Source: Haloterrigena turkmenica DSM 5511
Lineage (GTDB): Archaea; Halobacteriota; Halobacteria; Halobacteriales; Natrialbaceae
Direction: 5' to 3'
Assembly: GCF_000025325.1 (NCBI RefSeq)
Contig: NC_013743.1
Span: 2,542,001 to 2,606,000, forward strand
DNA length: 64,000 bases
Numbering within the stretch: the first letter of the stretch is position 1; the number at the start of each line of letters is the position of its first letter. Of this stretch, positions 12,190 to 34,414 are shown piece by piece. Made by a program: the position numbers and the translations under genes. The notes under the pieces are model-generated. The model had not been told where the DNA came from, ran no database searches, and worked only from the letters and a program-made list of their open reading frames with translations.

Positions 12190-12301
12190 GCCCAGCCGGG
12201 TTGCCCCGACTTCCTCTATCCTCGGACATATGTGTGTGACCCTATCGCATCTTGCCGACTTAAATCCGCCGGTCCCGGAGAGCGGAGACGTGGGTGAGCC
12301 A

Positions 12302-19005: not shown

Positions 19006-20037
19006 ATGTATAGACAGCACACGGTCGGCGTCGTCGTTCCGGCGTACAACGAGGAAGGATTCGTCGGCGACGTGCTCAGAACGATGCCGGAGTACGTCGA
19101 TCGGATCTACGCCGTCGACGACTGCTCGACCGACGGCACCTGGGACGAGATCCGCCAGACGGCCGAGGAGATAAACGGCGCCGCCGAGGAGTCCGTCGCG
19201 GCCGTTCGGGCCGACGAACAGCCGGTGACCGCCACCGACGGCGGTCCGGCGTTCGACCGGCGCGTCGTTCCGATTCAACACGAGACGAACCGCGGCGTCG
19301 GTGGTGCGATCAAGACCGGCTATCTCGAGGCCCTCGAGGACAAGATCGACATCACCGCCGTGATGGGCGGCGACGGTCAGATGGACCCCGACATCTTGTC
19401 GCGCTTTCTCGATCCGATCGTCGAGGGCAAGGCAGACTACACGAAAGGGAACCGCCTGGTCGACAAGGAGTACCGCGACGGCATGTCGCGGTGGCGGTTC
19501 TTCGGCAACTCAGTCTTAACCTTCCTGACAAAGATTGCCTCCGGCTACTGGAAGATGATGGACCCACAGAACGGGTACACAGCCATCTCCCAGCGGGCCC
19601 TCGAGAACGTCGGCATCGAGGAGATGTACGAGTACTACGGCTACTGTAACGACCTGCTGGTGAAGCTCAACGCCCGCGGCATGCGGATCGCCGACGTCCC
19701 GATGCCGGCCGTCTACGGCGACGAGGAGTCGAGCATCGATTACCCCTCCTACATCTGGAACGTGTCGGGAATGCTCCTCCGGAACTTCTGCTGGCGGCTG
19801 AAGGCTCGCTATCTCGTCCTCGATTTCCACCCGCTGGCGCTGTTTTACCTCCTCGGGACGGCGATCTGCGGCGTCGGCGTCCTCGGGATCGCCTGGTCGC
19901 TGTACGCCTGGATGACGCTCGCCGCCCCGCTGTTCGTCCGCGGATCGGTGAGCGCGCTCCTGTTCGTCACCGGCTGCCTGTTCGTCTTCTTCGCGATGCT
20001 GTTCGACATGCAGGCCAACGAGTCCATGGAGGTGTGA
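19006..20037 (+). CDS. GT2 family glycosyltransferase with C-terminal membrane anchor
   Basis: This 343-residue dolichyl-phosphate-sugar-synthase-like enzyme starts with VGVVVPAYNEEGFVGDVL. It has the acidic DDCSTDGTWDEI and VMGGDGQMDPD (DxD-type) nucleotide-sugar sites, the acceptor-loop NGYTAISQRAL, and two hydrophobic segments after residue 265. A charged insert of about 30 residues follows the first DxD region. The ATG at 19006 aligns with the family N-terminus. It probably transfers a sugar to a lipid carrier on the cytoplasmic face. The DUF354 and deacetylase genes follow with a 2-base gap and a 4-base overlap, forming one operon. Confidence 0.9.
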   Translation: MYRQHTVGVVVPAYNEEGFVGDVLRTMPEYVDRIYAVDDCSTDGTWDEIRQTAEEINGAAEESVAAVRADEQPVTATDGGPAFDRRVVPIQHETNRGVGGAIKTGYLEALEDKIDITAVMGGDGQMDPDILSRFLDPIVEGKADYTKGNRLVDKEYRDGMSRWRFFGNSVLTFLTKIASGYWKMMDPQNGYTAISQRALENVGIEEMYEYYGYCNDLLVKLNARGMRIADVPMPAVYGDEESSIDYPSYIWNVSGMLLRNFCWRLKARYLVLDFHPLALFYLLGTAICGVGVLGIAWSLYAWMTLAAPLFVRGSVSALLFVTGCLFVFFAMLFDMQANESMEV

Positions 20038-20039
20038 CG

Positions 20040-21185
20040 ATGGCGACTACACCTGCGGGCCGCGTCGTCGTCACCGTCCAGCATCCGGCTCACGTCCACT
20101 TCTTCAGGAACGCGATCGACGAACTGGAGGAACGGGGCTACGACGTTCGCGTCTTCGCCCGCGCGAAGGACGTCACCGAGGCTCTCCTCGAAGCCTACGG
20201 GATCGAGTACGAGCGTCTCGCGGGGAGCGCGGAGTCGCCCTTCGAACTCGCGAAAGTGCAGGCGACCTACGAGTACCGCCTGCTCAAACGCGTCCGACGG
20301 CTGGATCCGGACGTCATGCTCGCGATCGGCGAACCGGCGGTCGCACACGCGTCCGCGGCCGTCGACGGCCACAGCGTGCTGTTCACCGACACCGAGCACG
20401 CGACCCTGTCGAACGCGCTCGCGCTGCCGTTCGCCGACCTCGTCTGTACGCCCCGTGCGTTCTGGGACGACCGCGGCTCCTCCCACTACACCTATCCGGG
20501 CTACCACGAACTGGCGTACCTCCACCCGGATCGGTTCAGTCCCGATCCGTCGGTCCTCGCGGACCTCGAGCCGCAGGTCGAGGCGGGACTTCCCGCGGCG
20601 ACCGACGGAGGGGCCGCGTCCGGGACCGCCACCGGAGCTGACTCTGTTGAGCCCGGCGACGCGACCGCCACCATCGGCGACGAGTCGCTGATCGTCCTGC
20701 GGCTGATCTCGTGGACCGCGGCCCACGACATCGGCCAGGAGGGGATGGCCGGTGTCGAACGCCTCGTCGCCGACCTCGAGCGCGAGGGGGCGACGGTCCT
20801 CGTCTCGGCGGAGGGCGACCTCCCGCCGGCGCTTGCCGACCGACGGATCGACCTGCCGCCCGAACGGATGCACGACCTGCTGGCTCACGCCGATCTGTTC
20901 CTCGGCGAGAGCGCGACGATGGCCATCGAGAGCGCCGTCCTCGGCACGCCGTCGCTGTACGTCTCCGATCTGGACGCCGGCGTCCTCGAGGAACTCGAGA
21001 CGCGCTACGGGTTGATCCGCCGGCTCGAGCAGGACGCCGAGCCGAGCCAAGTCGCCGCCACCGCCCGGGAGCTGCTGGCGATCGACGACTCGACGTGGCG
21101 GGAGCGTCGACGGACGCTGTTCGACGAGACGATAGACACGACGGAGTTCGTCGTGAACACGGTCGAACGGGTGAGCGACGCATGA
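20040..21185 (+). CDS. DUF354 protein (GT-B/epimerase-like)
   Basis: This 381-residue protein begins with VVVTVQHPAHVHFFRNAI and continues through GYDVRVFARAKD, the hallmark N-terminus of DUF354. These proteins have a GT-B fold related to UDP-GlcNAc 2-epimerases and MurG-like transferases. The C-terminal half contains LGESATMAIESAVLGTPSLY, a typical nucleotide-sugar-binding element. A Gly/Ala/Thr-rich linker lies near residues 185-205. Either the ATG at 20040 or the GTG at 20034 could start it. The stop overlaps the next gene. Role is inferred as sugar transfer or epimerisation in the surface glycan pathway. Confidence 0.85.
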   Translation: MATTPAGRVVVTVQHPAHVHFFRNAIDELEERGYDVRVFARAKDVTEALLEAYGIEYERLAGSAESPFELAKVQATYEYRLLKRVRRLDPDVMLAIGEPAVAHASAAVDGHSVLFTDTEHATLSNALALPFADLVCTPRAFWDDRGSSHYTYPGYHELAYLHPDRFSPDPSVLADLEPQVEAGLPAATDGGAASGTATGADSVEPGDATATIGDESLIVLRLISWTAAHDIGQEGMAGVERLVADLEREGATVLVSAEGDLPPALADRRIDLPPERMHDLLAHADLFLGESATMAIESAVLGTPSLYVSDLDAGVLEELETRYGLIRRLEQDAEPSQVAATARELLAIDDSTWRERRRTLFDETIDTTEFVVNTVERVSDA

Positions 21186-22066
21186 TGGCGGACCGCTCGT
21201 TCGACGACGACTACGAGTTCGCCCTCTGTCTCACCCACGACGTCGACCGGCCCTACAAGACGTTCCAGGCGCCCTACTACGCCGCCGCGGAGCGCGATCC
21301 CTCCCATCTCCGGTCGCTGGTCACCGACGAGCGCCCCTACTGGCAGTTCGAGGAGCTGATGGCCCTCGAGGACGACCTCGACGTCCGGTCGGCCTGGTAC
21401 TTCTTGAACGAGAAGCGTCTCTGGGAGCAGTCCCCTCGCGAGTGGCTCGAGCCCCGCAACTGGATGCTCTACACGGGCCGCTACGACATCATGGACCCGG
21501 AGATCGTCGACGTCGTTCGGGCGCTCGACGATGGCGGCTGGGAGGTCGGCCTGCACGGCTCCTACGACTCCTACGACGACCGCGAGCGGTTGGGGTACGA
21601 GAAGCGGGTCCTCGAGAATGTCCTCGGCGATACCGTTCGCGGCGGCCGCCAGCACTACCTCAACACGAAACTCCCCGAGACGTGGGAGCACCACCGAGAG
21701 ATCGGCCTCCGGTACGACGCCAGCTACGGCTCGAGCGACAGCTACGGCTTCGACGGCCAGTACGACGTCCTCCGCCCGTTCGACGACGAGTTCGTCGTCT
21801 TCCCGCTGACGGTGATGGAGACGACGCTGTTCTCCCAGACGCCCTCGGTCGACGCCGCGTGGCGCGAGTGTCGGCGCCTGCTCGAGGAGGCGGCCGACAA
21901 CGGGGCGATCATGACCGCGCTCTGGCATCCGCGGTACCTCAACGAGGACGAGTTTCCGGGATATCGAACGATCTACCGCCGAATGATCGAGAAGGCGAAG
22001 GCGCTGGGCGGCTGGGTCGGACCGCCGGCCGAGTGTTACGAGCGGCTCGCGGCGGCGACGCCGTAG
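21182..22066 (+). CDS. Polysaccharide deacetylase family protein
   Basis: This 294-residue protein has the NodB-homology pattern of the haloarchaeal clade: an early CLTHDVDR metal site (Asp-Asp/His type), WEVGLHGSYDSY with the conserved histidine, GGRQHYLN, and a C-terminal ALWHPRYLNE motif providing the last histidine. It probably removes acetyl groups from an N-acetylated sugar. It has no signal peptide, so it would act in the cytoplasm on a lipid-linked or nucleotide-linked precursor. The start ATGATG overlaps the stop of the DUF354 gene by four bases. Confidence 0.87.
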   Translation: MMADRSFDDDYEFALCLTHDVDRPYKTFQAPYYAAAERDPSHLRSLVTDERPYWQFEELMALEDDLDVRSAWYFLNEKRLWEQSPREWLEPRNWMLYTGRYDIMDPEIVDVVRALDDGGWEVGLHGSYDSYDDRERLGYEKRVLENVLGDTVRGGRQHYLNTKLPETWEHHREIGLRYDASYGSSDSYGFDGQYDVLRPFDDEFVVFPLTVMETTLFSQTPSVDAAWRECRRLLEEAADNGAIMTALWHPRYLNEDEFPGYRTIYRRMIEKAKALGGWVGPPAECYERLAAATP

Positions 22067-22128
22067 CGGCTACTCGCGCACAAAATCGGCGCTCCGTCTC
22101 GGCAGCTAACTGACCGCGTCGAAGACAC

Positions 22129-23052
22129 TTACCGGCTCTCGAGAGCGGCGCGGGCTTCCTCGCGGCCCATGTCGAGACAGATCTCGTGTTCGTCGTAGTA
22201 CAGCGCCGCATTGGACGCGTCGCCGACGACGTAGCCCAGCGGCCCGACGGCTTCGATCCGGTTGTCGTCGGTCGTCGTAAAGCGCATCGAGGTGTCCTCG
22301 AAGGCGAGTTCGCCGTTGACCCAGTACTGCATCACGCCGTCGGCGTTGGCCTGCCCGTTCTGGTAGGAGTTGACCTTCACGTGGCACTCGATCTCGTTCC
22401 ACTCGTCCATTCGAACCACGGCGTCGGTCATCTGGAAGTCGCCCGAGCCGGTGTTGTCGAGGTGGTAGGAGTAGCTGAAGAACTTGTACCCCTCCGGCGC
22501 CGGCGAATCGTTCCGGTTGGCGAAGCCGATCGCGTTCGACCAGCCGTTCGTCCCGTCGGTGTTACCGCCGCCGGAGGAGCCGGGACCGTTCGTCAGGGGC
22601 CCCCAGAACATCCGGATGGTATCGTCCTGATTGAGGGTGAAGTTCTCCGGGTAGATCTTGAATCGCGTGTAGACCTCGTCCTGATAGTCGCCGACGTGCT
22701 CGGGGAACCGGTACTCGCAGTTGGCGATCTTCTGATCGCCCGTAAACGCCGTGTAGAGGGACTGTCGGCCAGTCGTCGCTCGGTCCGTAACGAACTCTGG
22801 CTGGTGGGAGCCGCGAACGTCGTTGACGTCGTAGACGTCGCCCGGTGCGCTGTAGTCGTCGTAGTTCACGGAGATCAGATCGCCGTCACCCGCAGCGGCC
22901 GCCGACCCCGCTACGCCCGAGACCCCGAACGCCGCGGCGGCCGATCCGGCCAGCTTGAGATAGGACCGTCGGCCGAGACCCGACTCGGCACCGTTGGTTC
23001 GGTCGTTGCTGACCGATCGATCGTGTTCGGTTACCGGCTGATCGCTCGTCAT
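22129..23052 (-). CDS. Tat-exported polysaccharide-lyase-like protein A
   Basis: This 307-residue protein has a Tat signal (LGRRSYLKLAGSAAAAFG) and one beta-jelly-roll domain like polysaccharide lyases of the PL14/heparinase-I type. Conserved stretches are the GSSGGGNTDGTNGWSNAIGF loop, FFSYSYH, the WNEIECHVKVN strand, MQYWVNGELAF and the final ALYYDEHEI. A catalytic role is inferred from the family; carbohydrate binding alone is possible. The ATG at 23052 follows a TATA box by 30 bases. It is convergent with the deacetylase gene, and two paralogues lie at 23328 and 28264. Confidence 0.8.
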   Translation of the reverse strand: MTSDQPVTEHDRSVSNDRTNGAESGLGRRSYLKLAGSAAAAFGVSGVAGSAAAAGDGDLISVNYDDYSAPGDVYDVNDVRGSHQPEFVTDRATTGRQSLYTAFTGDQKIANCEYRFPEHVGDYQDEVYTRFKIYPENFTLNQDDTIRMFWGPLTNGPGSSGGGNTDGTNGWSNAIGFANRNDSPAPEGYKFFSYSYHLDNTGSGDFQMTDAVVRMDEWNEIECHVKVNSYQNGQANADGVMQYWVNGELAFEDTSMRFTTTDDNRIEAVGPLGYVVGDASNAALYYDEHEICLDMGREEARAALESR

Positions 23053-23078
23053 GCAACTCGGGTAACGCTGGGATATCA

Positions 23079-23085
23079 TTATAAA
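23079..23085 (-). promoter_or_regulatory. TATA box of lyase-like gene A
   Basis: On the minus strand GTTTATAATG is centred about 30 bases before the ATG at 23052, predicting a leaderless transcript. The neighbouring bases resemble the promoter of paralogue B (AAGTTTATGAT). Confidence 0.65.
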
Positions 23086-23327
23086 CCTTTACTACTGATT
23101 AACGTTATATTATACTGAATGTATTCTATTACTACCACGATTGGTCGATAATTCTCGAAAACAGATATGGACGACGGCAGGCGATATTGCCCGTTCGAAA
23201 GGCAGCATTACCGGCCGTTGACGGTGGGGAAATAGTCTATTACTACGGCAGGAATAGGCCGGCTCTATCGTCGGTAGCGGACGGAAAACGGACGGAATCG
23301 AATTACCGAAACGCCGAGTCGACGGTC

Positions 23328-25394
23328 CTACTGGATGTCGTGGTGGACGTCGACGGTGGCGTCGCCGACGAGCGTGAAGTCCGTGATGTCCCCGTCGAAG
23401 AAGTAGGCGTCTCGTTCGCCCGCCCGAACGGTGCCCGCGGCGCTCGTACCCTCGAGCGAGTCGGCGCGGTCGACGGTCGCGTCGCGGTAGTTCGACTGAA
23501 TCACGTCGCCGTCGATGGTAAAGGAGTAGTCGGTCGCGTCGTCGGCCTCGCTGCCGTCGACGACGATCGCGTGCGGCAGGACGCGGGTCTCGCTGCTGTA
23601 GTCGGCGGGATCGATTCGCTCGGCGTCGAGGTACACGTGCGTCTCGCCCGTCGCGAACGTGACGTCGACGAGTTCGCCGGAGAAGCGGAATCGGTGGACG
23701 CCGCGCTCGATCGTTCCCGTCACGGTCTCGGTGGTCCGTCGCTCGGCGTCAGTAGCGGACGCGTCACCCAGGACGGTGTCGATCGTCCCGTCGACGGTCA
23801 GCTCGTAGCTCGCCTCCGATCCGTTGCCGACCACGGTCAGGACGTGGGGCAGGTCGTTGCCGTAGTCGGCCGGATCGATCTCCTCGCCGTCGACGGAGAC
23901 GCGCGCGGCCCCGTCGACCGTGAGCTCCTCGAGGTCGCCGCTGAAGCGGAACGCGTCGCGCCAGCCGGCGACGGAGCCCGTGACGGTCCCACTCTCGATG
24001 GTATCCGTGCCGTCGATCGAGGCACCGCCGTCCGACGATTTCTCGACCGAGCCGCTGACGGTGAACTCGTATCGGCTGGTGCCGGTCGTTCCGAGACCGT
24101 CGACGAGCACGACGCGCTCGAGGGGCTCGTCGGATCGATTCTCGGCCGGCGGCGCGTCGGGATAGTCGGCCGGATCGATCTGCTCGCCCGAGACCCACAG
24201 CTGTTCGGGTTCGGGGTCGGCCGAAATCGCGACGATGTCGCCGTCGAAGAAGTAGCCGTCGACGGTGCCGGGCTCGGCCGTCGCCTCGACGACGGCGTAC
24301 TCGTCGGACGCGATTTCGACGCTCTCGTTGTAGGTCGCCTGGCTCCAGTCGGACTGGACGATGTCGCCGTCGACGTACAGTTTGTACTCGGCCTCCTCGT
24401 CGCCGTTTCGGTAGGTGAACCGCTCCTCGTACTGCTCGCGGGCGCTGGGCTCGACCAGCGTCGGATCCTCGTCGTACGGCGGCGAATCGTCCCGATCGTC
24501 GGGCACGCCGCCGATCGCGATCTCGTGGTCGTCGTAGATCAGCGCGCTGCCCGAGAGGTTCGAGCCGACGACGTACCCCAGCGGGCCGACGCCCTCGATG
24601 AGGTTGCTCTCGGTAGTCGTCATCCGGAGGTTCGTCCGTTCGAAGGCGAGTTCGCCGTTGACCCAGTAGCGCATCACGCCGTCCCGGTTCGCGCTGCCGC
24701 CGGAGAACGTGTTACACCGGACGTAGCCCTCGATTTCGTTCCACTGGTCCATCCAGATCGGAACGTCCGTCATCTGGAAGTCGCCCGAGCCGCCCCGATC
24801 CATGTGATAGGAGTAGCTGAAGAAGTTGTAGCCGTTCGGCGCCGGCGAGTCGTTCCGGTTAGCGAATCCGATCGCGTTCGACCAGCCGTTGGTTCCGTCC
24901 GTCGCGCCGCCGCCCGACGAACCGGTTCCGTTCGTCAGGGGCAGCCAGAAGATCCGGACCGTATCGTTCGCGCTGAGTCGAATCCCGTCGGGATAGAGCT
25001 TGAAGCTGGTGTACACCTCCCGCGGCATCTCGTAGCCGTTCTCCTCAAACCGATACTCGAGATTCGCGGTCTTTTGCGCGCTCGAGAACTCCGTCCGAAT
25101 CGCCTGGTCGGACCCGTTCGTCGGCGAGGAGACGAACTCCGGCGGAATGCCGCTGCGGTTGTCGTTGACGTTGTACAGCTGCGACGGATCGCCGTACCGG
25201 TCGTAGTCGAGTTCGATTCGTTCCATTCCCTCGGTCGATTGCGCGCCCGCGACGCCTGCCGAGGTCCCGATCGCCGCCGCGGTCGCGCCGGCGAGTTTGA
25301 GATACGATCGGCGGTCGATCGCGCTGTCGCTAGCGGCCCTCTCGTCCGCACCGCCCGACGAGTCGTCACCCAGTTCCGGAGTCTTGCGTGCCAT
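23328..25394 (-). CDS. Tat-exported polysaccharide-lyase-like protein B with four C-terminal repeats
   Basis: This 688-residue protein begins with a Tat signal (IDRRSYLKLAGATAAAIG) and the same jelly-roll domain as A and C (about residues 60-300: GSSGGGATDGTNGWSNAIGF, FFSYSYHMD, MRYWVNGELAF, ALIYDDHEI). After a short acidic linker come four divergent modules of about 80-90 residues. Each has a Y-x-F/L-x-V-D-G strand, an RFSGDL or FFDGDI strand, and usually a closing VDGEEIDPADY. The modules look like beta-sandwich adhesion or carbohydrate-binding units. The ATG at 25394 is fixed by a TATA box 30 bases upstream. No membrane or wall anchor is visible. Confidence 0.8.
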   Translation of the reverse strand: MARKTPELGDDSSGGADERAASDSAIDRRSYLKLAGATAAAIGTSAGVAGAQSTEGMERIELDYDRYGDPSQLYNVNDNRSGIPPEFVSSPTNGSDQAIRTEFSSAQKTANLEYRFEENGYEMPREVYTSFKLYPDGIRLSANDTVRIFWLPLTNGTGSSGGGATDGTNGWSNAIGFANRNDSPAPNGYNFFSYSYHMDRGGSGDFQMTDVPIWMDQWNEIEGYVRCNTFSGGSANRDGVMRYWVNGELAFERTNLRMTTTESNLIEGVGPLGYVVGSNLSGSALIYDDHEIAIGGVPDDRDDSPPYDEDPTLVEPSAREQYEERFTYRNGDEEAEYKLYVDGDIVQSDWSQATYNESVEIASDEYAVVEATAEPGTVDGYFFDGDIVAISADPEPEQLWVSGEQIDPADYPDAPPAENRSDEPLERVVLVDGLGTTGTSRYEFTVSGSVEKSSDGGASIDGTDTIESGTVTGSVAGWRDAFRFSGDLEELTVDGAARVSVDGEEIDPADYGNDLPHVLTVVGNGSEASYELTVDGTIDTVLGDASATDAERRTTETVTGTIERGVHRFRFSGELVDVTFATGETHVYLDAERIDPADYSSETRVLPHAIVVDGSEADDATDYSFTIDGDVIQSNYRDATVDRADSLEGTSAAGTVRAGERDAYFFDGDITDFTLVGDATVDVHHDIQ

Positions 25395-25757
25395 ATACTC
25401 CGAGTAATCAGATTTTACTATCATAAACTTTTCCGCTCCGTGAACGGACAAATAATGCTAGAGTAAAAGCGTTTGAAAGGGAATTCCGTGAAATAACGAC
25501 ACATATATCGAAAACATTGACTGTGATGATACCGTGGTGTAAGGCGGGATTACCGGCGGCTCGAGGCCGCATTGGTCGCACAGTCGCCCCCGGTCGACTT
25601 CGGTTGGCTCCGGTTCGCGGGCCCGAAACGGTCGGATTGTCCGTACGGTCACGCGAACCGACGTTATCGCGGTCGTCGCGAATCGCGTGTCCGGATGACC
25701 ATCCCCGAAACGAAAGAAGCGACTCCCTTCGTTTTGCGCAGTACGGCTACAGCGGCC
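25395..25757. other. Divergent intergenic region
   Basis: No gene is supported between lyase-like gene B and the first FemAB-like gene. The left end holds the TATA box of gene B (25420-25428, minus strand). A stretch around 25660-25750 has direct copies of GTACGGCT at 25741 and 25758, the second belonging to the shared promoter element. Confidence 0.6.
25420..25428 (-). promoter_or_regulatory. TATA box of lyase-like gene B
   Basis: AAGTTTATGAT on the minus strand lies about 30 bases before the ATG at 25394, which suits a leaderless or near-leaderless transcript. Confidence 0.6.
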
Positions 25758-25777
25758 GTACGGCTGCTATAACAAAG
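25758..25777 (+). promoter_or_regulatory. Shared promoter element, copy 2
   Basis: GTACGGCTGCTATAACAAAG matches the element at 18642. The core TATAACAAA would direct transcription from about 25798, giving a leader of about 50 bases to the ATG at 25846. An additional GTACGGCT lies 17 bases upstream. Confidence 0.6.
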
Positions 25778-25845
25778 CCTACATGAACCAAAGCTGAGCG
25801 AGAGTGTCGCCTTCGGCGATCGACCGCCCGTCGACACCGACAACA

Positions 25846-26898
25846 ATGAGTATTCGTGTTTCAGTAGCCGATCCGTCAGAACAGGAGACGTGGAACAAGT
25901 ACGTCGATCGCTCCCCGCAGGGAACGGTCTTTCACCGGTACGAGGCCCTCGAGTGTCTCCGAAATCATTCGGGCGCGACGCTGTACCCGCTGATAGGGTA
26001 CAAGGGGGAGCAGCCGGTCGGGATCTTCCCCGTCTTCGAACTGAACAGCGGCCCGTTCTCGCTGGTCTTCTCTCCGCCGTACGAACTCGGCATTCCGAAC
26101 CTCGGGCCCGCACTGGTACACTTAGACCAGTTGAAACAGCGAAAACGAGAGAAACGGCACCTCCGATTCATGGAGAGCTGTCTCGAGTGGATCGACGAGG
26201 AGATCGATCCCCAGTACACCTACGTCGAGACCGACTGGCACTACGAGGACACGCGACCGTTTGCCTGGAACGACTTCGACGTTTCCCCGTCGTACACGTA
26301 CGTCATCCCGCTGGAGGATTCGCCCAGCGAGGAGGAGTTGATCGGTCGATTCAGCCAGAACCCACGGCGACTGATCCGGAACGCCCAGGACAGGGACTAC
26401 AGCGTCGAGGTCGGAGATCGCGACGACCTCAAGTGGATCACCCAGCAGGTCATCGAGCGATACGAGGAACAGGATCGGACGCCGCATCTCTCCGTCGATT
26501 ACGTCTTGGAACTGTACGATCGACTCCCGGAGGGGACCGTCCGACCGTTGGTTCTCGCGCTCGAGGGCGAGCGAGTGACGGGCAACATCCTCACCGATAG
26601 TGGGGATCGGGTCCGCGCCTGGCAGGGCGGGACGCGCGTCGAGATGGACTTTCCCGCGAACGAACTGGTCGAGTGGCACGGTATGCTCGACGCGATCGAG
26701 CGCGATGTGCCCAGTTACGAACTCGTCGGCGCGAACACGCGCCGACTGACCACGTGGAAGGCGAAGTTCAGCCCGGAGACGCGGACCTACTACTCGGCGA
26801 AACGGTCGACGGTGAGCATGGAACTGGCCGAGAGCCTCTACGTCAACCTCCGAGACAGCAGCGAGTTGCTCTCGCGACTGTCTCCGGCGACGAACTAG
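25846..26898 (+). CDS. FemAB-like GNAT-fold acyltransferase 1
   Basis: This 350-residue protein has the double-GNAT architecture of FemABX/BioF2-like proteins: an N-terminal half starting with WNKYVDRSPQGTVFHRYEAL, a middle RFSQNPRRLIRNAQDRDYSV helix pair typical of this family, and a C-terminal acyl-binding half with VRPLVLALEGERVTGNI. In bacteria such enzymes add amino acids from aminoacyl-tRNA to peptidoglycan precursors; archaeal substrates are unknown. The ATG at 25846 keeps the same distance to the first W-N motif as in the paralogue at 26993; a GTG at 25804 is an alternative. Confidence 0.8.
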   Translation: MSIRVSVADPSEQETWNKYVDRSPQGTVFHRYEALECLRNHSGATLYPLIGYKGEQPVGIFPVFELNSGPFSLVFSPPYELGIPNLGPALVHLDQLKQRKREKRHLRFMESCLEWIDEEIDPQYTYVETDWHYEDTRPFAWNDFDVSPSYTYVIPLEDSPSEEELIGRFSQNPRRLIRNAQDRDYSVEVGDRDDLKWITQQVIERYEEQDRTPHLSVDYVLELYDRLPEGTVRPLVLALEGERVTGNILTDSGDRVRAWQGGTRVEMDFPANELVEWHGMLDAIERDVPSYELVGANTRRLTTWKAKFSPETRTYYSAKRSTVSMELAESLYVNLRDSSELLSRLSPATN

Positions 26899-26992
26899 AC
26901 GTTCGCGCCGTCGCACGGGCCGAGTCGTCCGCGACCGCGAGTCGAATACCACGCACGAACACCGCCGACCAACCGTCTACGCTTTCGAAACC

Positions 26993-28054
26993 GTGTCAGC
27001 ACTCGAACCGACTCTGTACCGGAGCATCGAACCGATAAACGAGAACCAGTGGAACAACGTCGTCACCCAGTCCGACCGCGGGACCGTCTACCAGCGCTAC
27101 GAGTGGGTGCGGGCGATCGAGGAGGCGTTCGACCACGAGCCTCGCCACGTCGTCGTCGAGAAGAGCGGCAATCCGATCGCCCTCATGCCTAACTTCAAGA
27201 CCGACCTCCCCGTCCCCGACGCGGTCACGGAGACGCTCCCCGTCGCGCCGCCGCTCGAGCAGCTGGTCTCCCTGCCGACCGGATTCGGCGGCCCGGTCGT
27301 CCTCACCGACGAGGCCGACGCGCTCGACATGCTGTTCGACGGCCTCGAGTCGACCAGCGAGCGCACCGTCGTCACCCACGCCATCGAGACCTACGACCTC
27401 GAGTACGTGCGGTACGGCCAGTACCTCCAGACGCGGGGGTACGAGCCGTCGTTTGAGTCGTGTCTGTTCCTGATCGACCTGACAGACGGCTGGGATTCGA
27501 TCCTCGAGGGGATGGACAAGGGCCGACGCCGCGACATCCGAAAGGGCAACGAACAGGAGTATCAGATCGAGATCGACCCGCTCGGGACGGACCTCGAGAC
27601 GACCTACGACTGGTACGTCAAGAACCTGGAGCGCGTCGACGGCTCGCCGCTCCCGAAGGCGTTCTTCGAGTCCCTGGCCGACCGACTCGAGGATCGGCTG
27701 CGGGTCTTCAGGGCCGTCGTCGAGGGAGAGGAAGTCGGTCGGTACGTCTACCTCTTAGACGACGAGGGCGGGGTCCTCCACCACTGGTTGTCGGCGATCC
27801 CGGATTCGGACAACTATCAGTACCACCCCTCCGAACTCCTCCACGAACGCGGGATCAAATGGGGGATCGAGCAGGGGTACGAGCGGTACAACTTCGGGAA
27901 AACCGGCTCGCACTTCTCGAACTCGGTCTTCCGGTTCAAACACAAGTACGGGGGGACGGCCGTCCCCGTCTTCAAGGTCGAGAAGGGGTACTCGCGCGTC
28001 GCGTGGCCGTTGTACCAGCTCGGGCGCGAGAAGTACGTCGAAAAATCTCTCTAA
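26993..28054 (+). CDS. FemAB-like GNAT-fold acyltransferase 2
   Basis: This 353-residue paralogue of the preceding gene shows WNNVVTQSDRGTVYQRYEWV near the N-terminus, GMDKGRRRDIRKGNEQEY in the middle, and VFRAVVEGEEVGRYVYLL plus HHWLSAIP in the C-terminal GNAT half, ending with YNFGKTGSHFSNSVFRFKH, a strong FemAB-type motif. It starts at GTG 26993, about 95 bases after gene 1, and is probably in the same transcription unit. Divergence between the two suggests separate donor or acceptor specificities. Function is inferred from fold and cluster. Confidence 0.82.
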   Translation: MSALEPTLYRSIEPINENQWNNVVTQSDRGTVYQRYEWVRAIEEAFDHEPRHVVVEKSGNPIALMPNFKTDLPVPDAVTETLPVAPPLEQLVSLPTGFGGPVVLTDEADALDMLFDGLESTSERTVVTHAIETYDLEYVRYGQYLQTRGYEPSFESCLFLIDLTDGWDSILEGMDKGRRRDIRKGNEQEYQIEIDPLGTDLETTYDWYVKNLERVDGSPLPKAFFESLADRLEDRLRVFRAVVEGEEVGRYVYLLDDEGGVLHHWLSAIPDSDNYQYHPSELLHERGIKWGIEQGYERYNFGKTGSHFSNSVFRFKHKYGGTAVPVFKVEKGYSRVAWPLYQLGREKYVEKSL

Positions 28055-28104
28055 CCAACCTTTTGCTCTGCGCTCCCTCGCTATCGCTCGGTCGGTCGGC
28101 AAAA

Positions 28105-28188
28105 CGTTGATGAAAAGCGCTCCTCCCTCCCCTACGGGTCGGTCGTCGGCCCGCTCGCTCACTCCGTTCGCTCGCGGTGAGTGCATAC
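28105..28188 (-). repeat. Dispersed ~90-bp intergenic repeat, copy B
   Basis: The reverse complement of this segment reads GTATGCACTCACCGCGAGCG, then GGGCCGACGACCGACCCG, and ends in TTTTCATCAACG, matching copy A at 12302-12393 along its whole length. It lies downstream of the second FemAB gene and could act at the RNA level as a 3' end structure. Confidence 0.75.
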
Positions 28189-28263
28189 CCTCTCTTTCTA
28201 CTTTTCGCGAGCACAGCCACTCGTACGCCTTGAGGTGCCCTCATCTAATCGACCGCCCCCGCG

Positions 28264-29496
28264 TCACTCCTCGGGCCTCGAGGGAACGGCCGCCGGGTCG
28301 AGTTCCTGCCCATCGACCCACAGCTCCGCCAATTCCGGGTCAGCGTCGACGGCGACGACCGAACCGTCGTAGAGGAAGCCGTCGGCGCTCTCGGGATCGG
28401 CGACGGCGTCGGCGACCGCGTACCCCTCGGTGTCGTCGGCCAGTTCGATCTCGACCGTCTCGTTGGGTACCGCCGTGTGCCCGTCGACGTTGCTCCACCC
28501 GCTGTGGACGACGTAGCCATCGACGTAGATGCGATATCTCGTCTCCTCGTCGCCAGTCGCGACGGTGATCCGGCCATCGTAGTCGTCCATTCTGCTTGGA
28601 TCCTCGACGTAGGGATCCGGGTCCCGTTGGTCCTCGATCGCCCCGTTCCCGCGCAGTTCGTGGTCGTCGTAGTAGAGTGCCAGATCCGCCGGTGCCGTTT
28701 CGTCGCCGCCGTACCGAACCAGCGGCCCGCCGTACTCGATCGCCTGATCCTCGGTCGTCGTCCAGCGGAAGTCAGTTCGCTCGTAGACGGGCGTGCCGTT
28801 CAGCCAGCACCGAACCTCGCCGTTCGGATCCGCCGCGCCGTCGCTGACCGTGTTCATCCAAACGAGCGTCTCGAACTGAAACCACTTGCCGACCGGAACC
28901 GGCGCGCCGACGACCTCGAACTCGCCGCTGATGCCCTCCTGATCCATGTGGTAGGAGTACGCGGCGAGGTTGTAGGCCGCCTCGTCGTCGATCTCGCGAT
29001 CGGTCACGGCGAACATGCTCGACCAGCCGTCGTCACCGTGCGGCCGACCTCGACTGCCCGATCCCTGGACGCCGGCCTCCGTGTTGAGCCCCGCACACCA
29101 GAACCGACAGACGTCCGTCTCCGCCATCGTCCAGTCCTCGCTCAGTGAGACCATCGCCCGCTGGTAGAGCGCCCGCGGCTGGTCGTAGCCGTCGTCGGGA
29201 AACCAGACCATCGCGTTGCTCCCGTCGCTGTCGCCCTCGGGGATGTCACACCGCAGGGCCGTCTCTCCCGTGTAGGTGCGTCCGTTTTCGAAGGCGAACC
29301 GTTCCGGATACCCCGTCCAGACGCGGTAGACGTCCGACGGGTCGTCGTGCGCGTCGTACTCGATCTCTCGTTCCTCGAACGTCGCGGTCCCGCCGCCACC
29401 CCCCTCGTCTCGGGCGACGAGCGCGATCACCCCACCCGCGATCCCTGCCGTGAGCGCGCCGCCGGTGAGTTTCAAATACGACCGTCGGTCGACCAT
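28264..29496 (-). CDS. Tat-exported polysaccharide-lyase-like protein C
   Basis: This 410-residue third paralogue has its Tat motif at the very N-terminus (VDRRSYLKLTGGALTAGIAG) and then a glycine-rich linker, so the hydrophobic stretch might remain as a membrane anchor. The jelly-roll domain is more divergent (GSRGRPHGDDGWSSMFAV, LAAYSYHMDQEG, VRCWLNGTPVY, LALYYDDHEL). A single copy of the repeat module found four times in protein B forms the C-terminus (YRIYVDGYVVHSGWS ... LWVDGQELDPAAV). It is convergent with the FemAB pair and divergent from the membrane protein at 30088. Confidence 0.8.
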   Translation of the reverse strand: MVDRRSYLKLTGGALTAGIAGGVIALVARDEGGGGGTATFEEREIEYDAHDDPSDVYRVWTGYPERFAFENGRTYTGETALRCDIPEGDSDGSNAMVWFPDDGYDQPRALYQRAMVSLSEDWTMAETDVCRFWCAGLNTEAGVQGSGSRGRPHGDDGWSSMFAVTDREIDDEAAYNLAAYSYHMDQEGISGEFEVVGAPVPVGKWFQFETLVWMNTVSDGAADPNGEVRCWLNGTPVYERTDFRWTTTEDQAIEYGGPLVRYGGDETAPADLALYYDDHELRGNGAIEDQRDPDPYVEDPSRMDDYDGRITVATGDEETRYRIYVDGYVVHSGWSNVDGHTAVPNETVEIELADDTEGYAVADAVADPESADGFLYDGSVVAVDADPELAELWVDGQELDPAAVPSRPEE

Positions 29497-30087
29497 CTCC
29501 CGGGAGATACAGCGATGGCGCTCTTAGTTACGGTCCGGATTCGAGGGTATACAATCGGTAGCAGGCCGTTATATTATATACGTCTCTGCTACGGCACCGT
29601 CCCGCCTGTCCCAACGCTCGAGAGACCTCGTTCACCCGCTCCAGGCGTCAACCAGAGGCGATCAGATCGTGTCGCTGGTGCGGTGTTCAGTGCTCGAGGA
29701 AGCCTCACGCTCTTCGTGCCGGATCGTCCCCGCTAGCGGGACTCTCGAGTCGGGATTCGATTCCGTCTTGACAACTGTTGTGTCACCCTACTCTGACAGC
29801 TCCGATTCGATTACGTTCACCGAACTTCTCATAAGTTACCAGATGTGAGCAGTCCAACAGTAGCGACAGCGATACCTTCTCAGCGGCTGTGAACGGTGTC
29901 GTACGTTTTTCGAACGCGATTGTATGTAGTTGCGACAGATGATCAGTTCCGTCGATCGAAGCGGACCGGCGGCCGACCGTCGGTCCCGACCGGGAGCCGA
30001 ACCGAGACCGGACCCCGTCGCTCGAGTACGGATACCGAACTTCCCGCGACCGATTGCGAGACCGACGACGCAGGTCGGTGATGCCCC
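29497..30087. other. Intergenic region
   Basis: About 590 bases with no convincing gene. An A/T-rich island TATATTATATACG lies at about 29568-29582, and another A/T-rich patch lies at 29825-29935 before the GTG of the next gene. A 61-codon frame at 29896 has no support. Confidence 0.55.
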
Positions 30088-31980
30088 GTGAGACGGCTCG
30101 TCGATCGCGTCTACGGGCTATCGACGGTCGCGCTGCCGCTCGTGGCCGTCATCGGAATCGTCGCCCCGCTGGTCCTCGGGCTAACGAATCTGGCGATTCT
30201 GGGCCTGTACTTCGCCGTCCCCATGATCGCCGCGCCGGCACTGGTCCGAGCGATCGGCGACGAGCGGGGTTCCTCGACGGCGGCCGGCCGTCGGATCCCG
30301 CGGGTCGACTGGCGCGTCTGGTCGGTCACCTTCCACCTGCTGCTCGCGGGACTCGTGGTGGTGCTCAGCGCGACCGCGGTCCGACCGCTCCTGTTCTACG
30401 CGGGGGTCGCCGTCGCGTACCTGCTGTGTTTCCTGTTGATCACGACCTCGCGACCGACTCGAGGCCGCCACGCGATCGGCCTCTATCACCTGGTGGTCCT
30501 CGCCGCGCTCGTCATCTTCAGCGTCACGCTGAACTACGACCTCTTCGTGGGCCACGGCGACCTCATGACCCACATCGCGATGGCGAGGTCGATCCTCGAG
30601 ACGGGCGAGCTTTCCTCGCTGCTGCCGGAGTACGAGGCGTTCCAGCTCTGGCACGTCTACACCGCCGTCTCGACGCAGCTGTCGGGCGGCTGGCTCCCCG
30701 TCCACACGACGATGTACCTGCTCTCCGGGGGGATCTTCGCCGCCGCCGTCGGGCTCATGTACGGCCTCGCCCGGCGCGTCTACCCCAACGAGACCGCCAG
30801 CCTGCTGTCGTGTCTGGTGTTGATCTCGTTCCCGCTGTACCTCTTCTACGGGATGTACTCGATCCCGCGCAGCGTCACCTCGATCCTCTTTATCGCGCTC
30901 GTGCTCGCGCTCGTCGATCGGCCGACGGGGAACATGCGGATCCTGACGGTGCTGCTCGTCGCGGCGATCGTCGTCTACCACCCCGCGTCGATCCCGTTCG
31001 TCCTCGCGATCCTCCTCCTGTTCGCAGCCCTCGAGTTCTCGATCGCCAGCCCGATCCGGGCCGCCGACAACTACGTCCTCTCCGTCGGCGTCCTGATCAC
31101 GGCCACCTACTGGCTCTACAACGCTCAGTTCATCGTCGAACGGCTCGTCGACACGATGGTCGCGAGCTTCCTCGGCTCCACGCCGGGGTCGGGTCAGTCC
31201 GGAGACGTGCTCGCCGCGCCGTGGGCGCAGGCCGCGAACTTCGTCCCCTACGCGTTCGCCCTGTTGCTGGTCCTCGTCGGCTTCCTGTTCTGGCACCGGC
31301 GGCTCGCGACGAGCGGCGAGGCCGACGCGATGGCGGACGTGGCCGAGCCGGGCGTCGACGTCCGTTCGTCGCGGCGCGTGCCGCTGTTTACCTCCCTCGG
31401 ACTGCTGACGGTAGCCCTCATTCCGCTCGCCTTCCCCGGACCGACGCTGCTGCTCGATTCCCTAGCGGGCATCAACATCAGCCGGTTCGGCCACTACAGC
31501 ATCATGTTCGTCGCGCTGCTCGGCGGGTTCGGACTGTACGAACTGTTCGACCGCGGCGGCGTCGCGGTGTTCCTCGCGCTGCTCGTGCTCACGTCGGGGC
31601 TCGGGTTCACCGCCGTCTCCAACGACTTCACCGCATCCGACAACCCCGTCGTCGAGCGGCCCTTCTACACCTTCTACCTCACCGACAACGAGGTCCAGTC
31701 GTTCGAGGCCGTCGGCGCGGGCTACGACGGCGAGGTCGGCGCCGACAGGCTCTCCTGTCGATACCTCGAGGAACTGCAGGGGTCGTCGTGTTCGGTCGTC
31801 AACGCCGGCGGGGAGGGAGACCTGTTCGCCGGCTACGACGCCGTCCTCATCAGGGAGGGCGAACTCGCGGACAGGCCGTTGCAGTTCTCCGAGTACGTCG
31901 AGAAGGAGTCGATCGACGAGAGCGAACTCGCGGATCGAAACCGCGTCTACGATTCGAACGAGGTCGCGCTCTACGGCTGA
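30088..31980 (+). CDS. Polytopic membrane protein, GT-C-like
   Basis: This 630-residue protein has about 12-13 hydrophobic spans and an extracytoplasmic C-terminal domain of about 130 residues (from roughly residue 500). Its first large loop contains VGHGDLMTHIAMARSILETG, reminiscent of the acidic active-site loop of GT-C enzymes (PMT/ArnT/STT3 type), and the later VYPNETASL and SIPRSVTSI loops fit a lipid-linked sugar transferase. The GTG start follows no clear TATA box. Position between lyase-like C and the flippase suggests transfer of lipid-linked sugars outside the cell. I do not recognise a specific family. Confidence 0.72.
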   Translation: MRRLVDRVYGLSTVALPLVAVIGIVAPLVLGLTNLAILGLYFAVPMIAAPALVRAIGDERGSSTAAGRRIPRVDWRVWSVTFHLLLAGLVVVLSATAVRPLLFYAGVAVAYLLCFLLITTSRPTRGRHAIGLYHLVVLAALVIFSVTLNYDLFVGHGDLMTHIAMARSILETGELSSLLPEYEAFQLWHVYTAVSTQLSGGWLPVHTTMYLLSGGIFAAAVGLMYGLARRVYPNETASLLSCLVLISFPLYLFYGMYSIPRSVTSILFIALVLALVDRPTGNMRILTVLLVAAIVVYHPASIPFVLAILLLFAALEFSIASPIRAADNYVLSVGVLITATYWLYNAQFIVERLVDTMVASFLGSTPGSGQSGDVLAAPWAQAANFVPYAFALLLVLVGFLFWHRRLATSGEADAMADVAEPGVDVRSSRRVPLFTSLGLLTVALIPLAFPGPTLLLDSLAGINISRFGHYSIMFVALLGGFGLYELFDRGGVAVFLALLVLTSGLGFTAVSNDFTASDNPVVERPFYTFYLTDNEVQSFEAVGAGYDGEVGADRLSCRYLEELQGSSCSVVNAGGEGDLFAGYDAVLIREGELADRPLQFSEYVEKESIDESELADRNRVYDSNEVALYG

Positions 31981-32001
31981 TCGGCGCCGCACAGCGTGCG
32001 A

Positions 32002-33462
32002 TCAGCCCGTGAGCTGCTCCGCGACCTGATCGACGTCGATGAGATCGAAGGCCTGGCAGGCGACCAGCCAGACGACGCCGCTGGCGGCGATCGCGACGAC
32101 GAGGCCGACGTACCCCGAGAGAACGTGCAGGAACGCCAGGACGATCGCGGCTATCCCGACGCTGATCCCCAGTGACGTCGTGAAGCAGTGGGCCACCTTC
32201 CGGTAGTCGAAGGGGAGTTCGGTGTAGACGATCCCGACCGTACAGATCGCGTAGGTGCCGTACGTGATCACGGTCGCGACCGCAGCCCCGGCGGCTCCGA
32301 AGATCGGGATCAGGGCGAGGTTCAGGGCGACGTTCCCGGTCGACGTCGTCGCCTTGAGGATCGCCCGCGACCGCGCTCGCCCGAGATAGTCCAGCGCGGG
32401 CCCGGAGATGTTCTCGAGGGCCTCGAAGAAGACGAACAGCGAGAGGATCTGGACGACGAGGATGCCGCCAGCGTAGCCGTCCCCGAAGATCAGCACGATG
32501 GCCGGGTCGGCGATAACGAGGATGCCGACGCAGGCGGGCACGTACAGCGTCAGCGTCTTGCGAAGACTCTCCTCGTACACCGAGGCGGCCGCCTCGGTCT
32601 CTCCCTTCGACGACTCTGCCCCGTAGGAAGGCGAGAGCGCGAAACCGATCGAGGCCGCGGGGACGCGCGTGAACTGGCTGATCTGTTTCCCGATCGTGTA
32701 GAACGCGACCTGCGTCGGATTCGTGAGAAAGCCCACGAGGATCGTGTCGAGGTGGCCGTCGACCTCGGCGGAGAGTCGCGTGACGCTCAGGGGCACGTTG
32801 TACCGGAGGATGTTCATTCGGACCTCGCCGTCGCCGGTGATGCTCGCCCGATCGAGGTCGCTGACTCGCCAGACCATCCAGTGGCCCAGCAGTGTCGCGA
32901 GGCCGTAGGCGACTACGTAGCCCACGACGGCCGCCGTCGGCGTCGGTCGGAGCAGGACGGCGGCCGTCACGAGCGCCAGGGTCATGCCTCCCTTTATCGC
33001 GTGCAACTTCGCTGTGGCGGAAATCGCTTCGTACCCCTGCAGGATGGCTCGGTTGTACCGGTAGAGCGTGTAGAACAGGACGTAGCCCGAGCCGACGAAC
33101 AACAGGCCGGCGAGGCCCGTCTCGTTCAGCAGCGCCGCGAGGAAGTCGGCGCCGACGAGCAGGGCGACGGCGACGGCCAGCGACGCGATCGCGACGAGGA
33201 CCCACGATTCGACGACCGCGGCGACGGCGCGCTCGGTGGCGTCGTCCCTGTCCTCGGCGATGAACCGCGCCGCGGCCCACGGCAGCCCCGATTCGCTGAT
33301 GAACCGAGAGAAGGAGAAGACCGAGAGCGCGAACGCGAGTAGTCCGTACGACTCCGGCCCGAGGATCCGCGTGAGTACGAGCAACAGGAGTCCGGTCGAT
33401 ACGACGTGGATGACGCGACCACCGAAATCGGAGACGATGTTCGATATCAGTCTGTTCGCCAT
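32002..33462 (-). CDS. Wzx-type lipid-linked oligosaccharide flippase
   Basis: This 486-residue protein has about 12-14 spans of the MATE/MVF polysaccharide-exporter superfamily. Landmarks are the N-terminal SNIVSDFGGRVIHVVSTGLL, RILGPESYGLLAFALSVFSF and the central ISQFTRVPAASIGFALSPSY. It should flip lipid-linked glycan units to the outer face of the membrane. The gene converges with the GT-C-like gene (21-base gap) and diverges from the GNAT gene. It provides the export step of the cluster. Confidence 0.9.
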   Translation of the reverse strand: MANRLISNIVSDFGGRVIHVVSTGLLLLVLTRILGPESYGLLAFALSVFSFSRFISESGLPWAAARFIAEDRDDATERAVAAVVESWVLVAIASLAVAVALLVGADFLAALLNETGLAGLLFVGSGYVLFYTLYRYNRAILQGYEAISATAKLHAIKGGMTLALVTAAVLLRPTPTAAVVGYVVAYGLATLLGHWMVWRVSDLDRASITGDGEVRMNILRYNVPLSVTRLSAEVDGHLDTILVGFLTNPTQVAFYTIGKQISQFTRVPAASIGFALSPSYGAESSKGETEAAASVYEESLRKTLTLYVPACVGILVIADPAIVLIFGDGYAGGILVVQILSLFVFFEALENISGPALDYLGRARSRAILKATTSTGNVALNLALIPIFGAAGAAVATVITYGTYAICTVGIVYTELPFDYRKVAHCFTTSLGISVGIAAIVLAFLHVLSGYVGLVVAIAASGVVWLVACQAFDLIDVDQVAEQLTG

Positions 33463-33790
33463 GTGGTGTTTGGAGGTATTGTGTGTGCGATTGGACGGCG
33501 CGGCGTTCCGGAGCCGACGCGGGCGCGGAACCGATTCCGTCCGCGGTCGGCCCGGGGCGATACCTGATCTGAGGGTGATGTGAAACGCGAACTAATAGGT
33601 TCGTGACGGGAATCGTGTCACTGACGAGTTGCTGAACGATAGGGATCGAATAGGATTCGCTACCCGCCGCCTGAACCGACCGGCGGCGCGCGTAGGATCC
33701 GAATTCTCTCCGCCGTCTCGAGGGGGACTCCTCGCTACGGTTCGAACGATCACCCACCGATATGTACGCGAATCGCATTAGCCGACCGTG
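33463..33790. other. Divergent intergenic region
   Basis: No gene seen. It should hold the promoters of the flippase and of the GNAT gene, but neither has a clear TATA box. Confidence 0.5.
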
Positions 33791-34414
33791 ATGTCACTCG
33801 TCAGTAAGGCGAAACACACCACGCAGGATCTCACCAGCAAAGCGAAGAACGCGAAACTCGATCTGGCCGCCTACAAGTTCGCTGGCGAGCTTCCCGAGGA
33901 ATCGTACGCGTCGATCGATACCGAGCGTGCCGTCGTCGACGACAGAGGGACCGTGCGGCGGTTCTTCGGCGACGACCCCACGTGGCGCGACCGCTACTTC
34001 GAGTACCTCGAGGACGGCCACGTCGGGATGGTCCTCCACGACGACGGCGAGGTGATGAGCTACGGCTGGACCCTGACGCCGGCGTCGGTTCGGGCCCCCA
34101 GAGCGCTCCCGGATTCGATCGTTGAAGAGGACTGCTACTGGCTGTTCGACGCCGGGACGGAGCCGGCGTACCGCGGCAACGGGCTGTTCAAGGAGATCAA
34201 CCGCGCGCGAACCGAGTGGATCCTCGAGCGCGATCCCGACGCGACGATCTACACCGATACCGGCGTCGACAACGTCGCCCGCTACGGTATCGAGTCCTCG
34301 CAGTTCGAGCCGCACGGCACGATCTCGCTGGTCAGGTTCGAACTCCCGGGAACGCCGCTGTTGAAGTGGAGCCGATGGGATCGGGACGCCGAGCATCCGC
34401 CGAAACCGGAGTGA
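33791..34414 (+). CDS. GNAT-family N-acetyltransferase
   Basis: This 207-residue protein starts with a basic amphipathic stretch (MSLVSKAKHTTQDLTSKAKN) that may touch the membrane. It then has a single GNAT domain with DGEVMSYGWTLTP, the acetyl-CoA loop AGTEPAYRGNGLFKEINRA, and TDTGVDNVARYGIESS. ATG 33791 is preferred to GTG 33788. The position beside the flippase makes a sugar-modifying role plausible (acetylation of an amino sugar), but no substrate motif is visible. Confidence 0.78.
   Translation: MSLVSKAKHTTQDLTSKAKNAKLDLAAYKFAGELPEESYASIDTERAVVDDRGTVRRFFGDDPTWRDRYFEYLEDGHVGMVLHDDGEVMSYGWTLTPASVRAPRALPDSIVEEDCYWLFDAGTEPAYRGNGLFKEINRARTEWILERDPDATIYTDTGVDNVARYGIESSQFEPHGTISLVRFELPGTPLLKWSRWDRDAEHPPKPE

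Follow-up and report, generated by a model that had tools for sequence, protein, structure and literature searches.

Gene content of the locus and its deacetylase and FemAB-like enzymes

The stretch of DNA analysed here (the window; 64,000 nucleotides, positions 2,542,001 to 2,606,000 of NC_013743.1) is part of a 3,889,038-base contig in the 5,440,782-base assembly of the haloarchaeon Haloterrigena turkmenica DSM 5511. At 19006-34414 it harbours eleven genes, which a first-pass annotation, made from the sequence alone, had proposed to be an undescribed surface-glycan system pairing FemAB-like transferases with exported lyase-like proteins. All eleven genes are present at these positions (Table 1) with coding-like codon usage, and a codon-based gene caller recovered the same set. 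Homologues of ten of them were found at sister loci, the GNAT gene (P0011) being the exception. Here we show that this cluster represents a variant form of a surface-glycan locus conserved among haloarchaea. The GT2, DUF354 and deacetylase genes overlap by 4 nucleotides each and thus form one operon, and the lyase-like genes lie on the strand opposite to it.

The best curated match of the deacetylase P0003 was VimE, the UDP-2,3-diacetamido-glucuronate deacetylase (NF053580), over 256 aa. Its score of 57.9 bits lies below the equivalog cut-off of 440 bits and marks P0003 as homologous only. Residues H19, D20, D22, H125, S127, R156 and H249, belonging to CE4-like motifs, were invariant in 41 aligned sequences, and the H. 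salina homologue of P0003 stood at 96%. Comparison of the P0003 profile with the PDB gave no useful match.

The FemAB-like pair was borne out, as both proteins match PF13480 and the AlphaFold (AF2) model of P0006 (pLDDT 91) has a double-GNAT fold. In a Foldseek search this model matched first the Sbb17-type aminoacyl-tRNA-dependent peptide synthases acting on streptothrisamine, at 12-13% identity, and then FemX, FemA and MprF (E about 1e-13 to 1e-11 for FemX/FemA). P0006 carries invariant K319/K321 in a YKAKF-like motif, with which FemX K305 would align. P0007 was closest to FemX and TIGR03019; its profile matched FemX at 2.1e-15 and an aminoacyl-tRNA-dependent synthase at 8.3e-11, and its K316, invariant in the family, aligns with the catalytic lysine K305 of FemX. 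Against the TIGR03019 cut-off of 260 bits, P0007 scored 63.5 bits and P0006 33.3 bits, which makes them related only. Both the modelled fold of P0006 and the aligned lysine in P0007 argue for transfer that depends on aminoacyl-tRNA.

It is also conceivable that the exchange made by deacetylase and transferase holds, but that the FemAB-like enzymes attach an acyl group other than an amino acid, taken from acyl-CoA or some other activated acid, in the way proposed for HfsH/HfsK of the Caulobacter holdfast. Proteins of the GNAT fold are versatile, the FemAB-like proteins have PF13480 as their best Pfam model, and the role of HfsK is not settled (PMC5362036). CoA-dependent GNATs do occur in the P0006 fold list, but further down, the top 14 matches being all aminoacyl-tRNA-dependent enzymes, and the equivalent of FemX K305 is invariant in the P0007 family. 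We therefore regard a donor of this kind as somewhat unlikely and prefer an aminoacyl-tRNA.

A tree of FemAB-like proteins contained one mostly deacetylase-adjacent and one mostly phosphodiesterase-adjacent clade, and rejected the idea that P0006 is orthologous to the deacetylase-adjacent FemAB. At two lyase-type loci (L032 and L033) only a P0007-type FemAB is near the deacetylase, so that P0007 may be the real deacetylase partner. Filing the deacetylase and FemAB as members of VimE and VimA was likewise rejected, since their scores were under the cut-offs, and we retain only that they work like them.

Table 1. Genes of the cluster, with window coordinates and the evidence for each assignment
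Gene	Assignment	Coordinates	Strand	Evidence
P0001	GT2 glycosyltransferase	19006..20037	+	PF00535 1.7e-17
P0002	DUF354, GT-B-like	20034..21185	+	PF04007 2.1e-12; cluster 2
P0003	VimE-like sugar N-deacetylase	21182..22066	+	NF053580 6.4e-16; signal peptide not evident
P0004	Tat-exported jelly-roll lyase-like protein, without C-terminal module	22129..23079	-	Foldseek, Aly36B profile
P0005	Tat-exported lyase-like protein, four C-terminal module repeats	23328..25451	-	repeats, Tat motif
P0006	FemAB-like double-GNAT transferase	25804..26898	+	PF13480 1e-12, Foldseek, tree
P0007	second FemAB-like transferase	26993..28054	+	PF13480 7e-15, TIGR03019 1.6e-17
P0008	Tat-exported lyase-like protein, one C-terminal module	28264..29496	-	Tat motif, module match
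P0009	large multi-spanning membrane protein, possible GT-C transferase	30088..31980	+	
P0010	Wzx-type flippase	32002..33462	-	PF13440 2.4e-23; HfsF 9.6e-17
P0011	weak GNAT-like protein	33788..34414	+	PF00583 E = 0.011, below cut-off

Conservation of the locus and its wbp genes

Co-occurrence was examined in 194 genomes drawn from the haloarchaeal class, and gene neighbourhood in 81 loci, each spanning about 20 kb, the window included, with a further 80 named loci. The genes were found to cluster beyond chance. Homologues of P0003 were present in 101 of the 194 genomes, 97 of them strong. Deacetylase and P0006-type FemAB occurred together in 96 genomes, the deacetylase alone in 1, FemAB alone in 20 and neither in 77 (Fisher p = 1.5e-33, kinship ignored). 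By inspection of genus labels, both genes vary together in several genera (e.g. g21, g22, g37, g46) and are discordant in some (g25, g45). Of the 81 deacetylase loci, 70 had a FemAB gene inside the ~20-kb stretch; among the other families, DUF354 was found in 56 loci, type I phosphodiesterase in 46, and wbpA, wbpD, wbpB, wbpI and wbpE in 31-39 each. A typical order, wbpD-wbpE-wbpB-wbpA-(GT2)-wbpI-deacetylase-FemAB, in which the wbp operon often directly precedes the deacetylase, recurs among the 80 named loci. NCBI annotation of plasmids of Haloferax mediterranei and H. gibbonsii shows the same wbp-deacetylase-FemAB order, the full operon of H. mediterranei being located on plasmid pHME505. 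A wbpE-type aminotransferase was present in 96 of 97 deacetylase genomes as compared to 35 of 97 others. Curated models assign the wbpB-type protein as archaeal UDP-GlcNAc 3-dehydrogenase, wbpI as WecB and wbpA as a nucleotide-sugar dehydrogenase.

None of the wbp genes is in the window itself; its genome has wbpD-E-B-A-GT2 on another replicon (C5:72727-78106), while in many relatives wbpA, wbpB, wbpD and wbpE are linked in cis to the deacetylase. The chromosome segment alone thus shows one half of a pathway, and the other half is on a second replicon. In two relatives the wbp genes share a chromosomal neighbourhood with deacetylase, lyase-like, FemAB and P0007-type genes (L113 with L034, L114 with L058). 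Replicon C5 also carries a second FemAB-phosphodiesterase pair (C5:6099-8749). The family of the window's own GT2 (cluster 7) occurs in 34 of the 81 loci, and P0001 clusters with the GT2 situated between wbpA and wbpI in other haloarchaea.

Co-occurrence of deacetylase and lyase-like genes was weak (p = 0.04) and the lyase-like cluster was present in 7 of the 81 loci, because of which the lyase-like proteins were rejected as the core of the system. FemAB has as its core partner the VimE-like deacetylase together with the wbp genes, and the lyase-like proteins are accessory, occurring in a minority of loci.

Several other genes were observed at these loci. Genes of the type I phosphodiesterase family (PF01663), seen at L092:6772-8376 and in 45 further loci, often form a pair with a FemAB of a distinct clade beside the wbp operon, and their products may put phosphate groups on the glycan or take them off. 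In the Haloferax loci L077, L231 and L256, a 420-aa protein without informative Pfam matches (cluster 10, 31 loci; e.g. L101:11864-13129) is encoded between deacetylase and FemAB. An asparagine-synthase-related gene was seen near the operon on three annotated plasmids (L123:929-2791, L124:19572-21362, L125:2205-4055); the related gene of Porphyromonas gingivalis (WbpS) makes a uronamide (PMC7468200). In a second locus type (L157-L163), FemAB and P0007-type FemAB genes occur with a wbpA-like gene in most; L159-L163 add lyase-like genes, with no deacetylase in the stretch seen.

Exported lyase-like proteins and neighbouring genes

An RRSYLK twin-arginine translocation (Tat) motif is present in P0004, P0005 and P0008, in keeping with their predicted export. 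For these proteins Pfam gave polysaccharide-lyase matches under threshold only, and P0004 did not reach the gathering scores of PF14099 (26.0 vs 29.9 bits) or PF21294 (17.6 vs 27 bits). The profile of the lyase-like family, however, matched Aly36B (PL36) at 1.4e-15 and vAL-1 (PL14) at 7e-9. The AF2 model of P0004 (mean pLDDT 78.5, core mostly >85) retrieved vAL-1/Aly36B in Foldseek, its best fold matches being alginate, glucuronan and ulvan lyases. Profile and model together confirm a predicted PL14/PL36-like jelly-roll polyuronate-lyase fold. Like the PL14/PL36 alginate lyases, the window proteins have the Y-x-Y-H motif; they differ by their Tat signals, by an extra C-terminal module in two of the three, and at the position aligned with the PL36 catalytic Lys143, which is not Lys in any of them (the test covers the PL36 residue). 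Of the dedicated trimming or binding role suggested earlier, trimming is unproven, as the proteins retain the polyuronate-lyase fold but not the PL36 catalytic lysine.

The C-terminal module, of ~85-110 residues, gave no Pfam match. It was found in 67 proteins, mostly of the lyase-like and beta-helix kinds, including many exported beta-helix proteins at sister loci; thus one module is carried by two unrelated folds. Copies also occur elsewhere in the genomes. A 141-aa lyase-family-like ORF matching the module was observed just after the plasmid wbp operon (C5:78490-78915; L111:18490-18915).

The three exported proteins might instead scavenge foreign polyuronates of the alginate kind and be present in the locus by chance, an explanation which concerns this part of the cluster only. 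Their fold is that of alginate/glucuronan lyases, and lyase-like homologues are present elsewhere in haloarchaeal genomes, away from the locus. But the locus contains three paralogues in both Haloterrigena and Natrinema, and related genera have one or two there; lyase-like genes and P0007-type FemAB are together again at L159-L163; the module is common to beta-helix proteins at sister loci; and the PL36 catalytic lysine is not conserved. We consider scavenging unlikely, and take a role of the exported proteins on the polymer of the locus as the better account.

As regards the neighbouring genes, P0009, called GT-C-like in the first-pass annotation, had no Pfam match, which leaves that call unconfirmed, and its family (cluster 31) occurs in 7 of the 81 loci, alongside lyase-like genes. 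The flippase family of P0010 (cluster 15) was found in 20 of the 81. The GNAT P0011, earlier counted in the system, was rejected as a part of it, as its match is below cut-off and it is not among the recurrent clusters of the 81 loci; it probably does not belong. Elsewhere in the window, a leuA-Halobacteria RNA motif (RF03001, 73.5 bits) is present at 12178-12230 (minus strand), beside a 524-aa ORF.

Proposed pathway and comparison with known systems

We lean towards the view that the cluster encodes the later part of a Wbp/Vim-like haloarchaeal pathway, by which an N-aminoacylated amino-uronic-acid unit is made for a surface polymer. From the genes present, their conserved linkage, the folds and the key residues described above, we infer its substrates, amino acid, donor, product, order of steps and the export of this glycan as follows. 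WbpA/B/E/D, encoded on the other replicon here and in cis in most relatives, would convert UDP-GlcNAc to a UDP-2,3-diacetamido uronic acid. The VimE-like deacetylase would free one amine, and a FemAB-like enzyme (P0007 and/or P0006) would attach an amino acid to it, the probable choice being glycine or serine donated by aminoacyl-tRNA. Rather than a peptide, this enzyme more likely modifies an amino sugar bound to a nucleotide or to a lipid. Assembly of the glycan on a lipid carrier would then fall to GT2, DUF354 and the membrane protein, the flippase would move the lipid-carried glycan outward, and the Tat-exported jelly-roll proteins may bind, trim or remodel the polymer. The earlier suggestion of an N-modified, probably aminoacylated exported polymer is thereby strengthened by the deacetylase-FemAB-wbp linkage, the P0006 fold and the P0007 lysine, its chemistry remaining a prediction. 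That the cluster is a general surface-polysaccharide cluster, whose deacetylase leaves a free amine and whose FemAB-like proteins use another substrate (lipid, protein or small molecule), as FemAB-like genes without deacetylase in 20 genomes and at other sites and the same fold in MprF-type lipid aminoacyltransferases might suggest, is improbable given that the two genes repeatedly adjoin across families and co-occur near-universally.

Several points weigh against a Wbp/Vim-like pathway of this kind. The VimE and TIGR03019 scores fall far short of the curated thresholds and do not establish equivalence, and in the FemAB tree P0006 belongs to the phosphodiesterase-adjacent rather than the deacetylase-adjacent clade. 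The association statistic takes no account of phylogeny; moreover, FemAB is universal in the window's own family, so that the signal comes from other families. The search of the window's genome covered wbpD/E/B/A and GT2, wbpI lying outside it. As to the product, Halococcus has N-glycyl-glucosamine, and not a known N-glycyl diamino uronic acid. In Haloferax denitrificans ATCC 35960, which carries the operon (L231), the exopolysaccharide (EPS) contains three GlcA2,3NAc per repeat, all residues being diacetylated with no amino acid reported (PMC3191746). H. gibbonsii ATCC 33959 also has the operon (L256), yet its reported EPS is neutral; the product is perhaps a cell-bound glycan, maybe not the main secreted EPS, and a tie of the operon to the latter is unsupported.

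Among known systems, the double-GNAT fold is shared with FemX/FemA/FemB, and FemX K305 corresponds to P0007 K316; those enzymes are distant (FemX profile match 2e-15) and act on peptidoglycan, an acceptor absent from haloarchaea. The Caulobacter holdfast proteins HfsH/HfsK/HfsF similarly combine a cytoplasmic deacetylase, a Fem-related GNAT and an HfsF-like flippase for an exported polysaccharide; they are bacterial, their acyl group is unknown and the excerpted text mentions no wbp genes (PMC5362036). A Fem-like enzyme of the streptothricin-type BD-12 route adds glycine from Gly-tRNA to the C2-amine of an amino sugar (PMC10156733, PMC12945691). These streptothrisamine-aminoacylating enzymes, Orf11/Sbb17/Sba18, include the best fold match of P0006, and an N-acetyl-gulosamine deacetylase of the route is named in the title of a paper cited by PMC10156733. 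They differ in serving a Streptomyces antibiotic pathway with a free small-molecule acceptor, and in their low identity to P0006.

The closest parallel is the Wbp/Vim pathway of P. gingivalis and Tannerella forsythia, with wbpA/B/D/E, a VimE-type deacetylase and a TIGR03019-related FemAB (VimA). In P. gingivalis a diacetamido uronic acid is made, deacetylated at C2, given serine or glycine, built into the glycan and exported, VimE and VimA being the proposed actors; the products are 2-N-aminoacyl-3-N-acetyl uronic acids (PMC7468200). The haloarchaeal set differs in having two FemAB types, exported lyase-like proteins and sub-cut-off profile scores, no role in type IX secretion system (T9SS) cargo or sortase being seen, and in the window's genome the wbp genes are on another replicon. 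The Wbp/Vim pathway is known in bacteria, so that the earlier label of an undescribed system holds only in part, although we found no description of the Wbp/Vim pathway in haloarchaea, nor any paper on haloarchaeal FemAB, in the open-licence literature.

Within haloarchaea, the wall polysaccharide of Halococcus morrhuae contains N-glycyl-glucosaminyl bridges (Steber & Schleifer 1979, as cited in PMC4187196). H. morrhuae DSM 1307 carries flippase-wbpD-E-B-A-GT2-wbpI-deacetylase, with FemAB ~10 kb away on the same contig. The chemistry is known for glucosamine, its genes are not assigned, and the operon is a candidate for making it. We tentatively suggest, as a possibility short of a probable one, that haloarchaeal aminoacyl-tRNA sugar aminoacylation of the Wbp/Vim type is the gene set behind these bridges, with the exported jelly-roll and beta-helix module proteins as dedicated partners. 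If true, this would show tRNA-dependent aminoacylation of sugars also in archaea that lack peptidoglycan, provide a genetic handle on wall chemistry reported in 1979, and make the question testable in tractable species such as H. mediterranei. The cluster is probably an archaeal version of Wbp/Vim-type aminoacylation of amino sugars, with a possible link to a wall chemistry without assigned genes.

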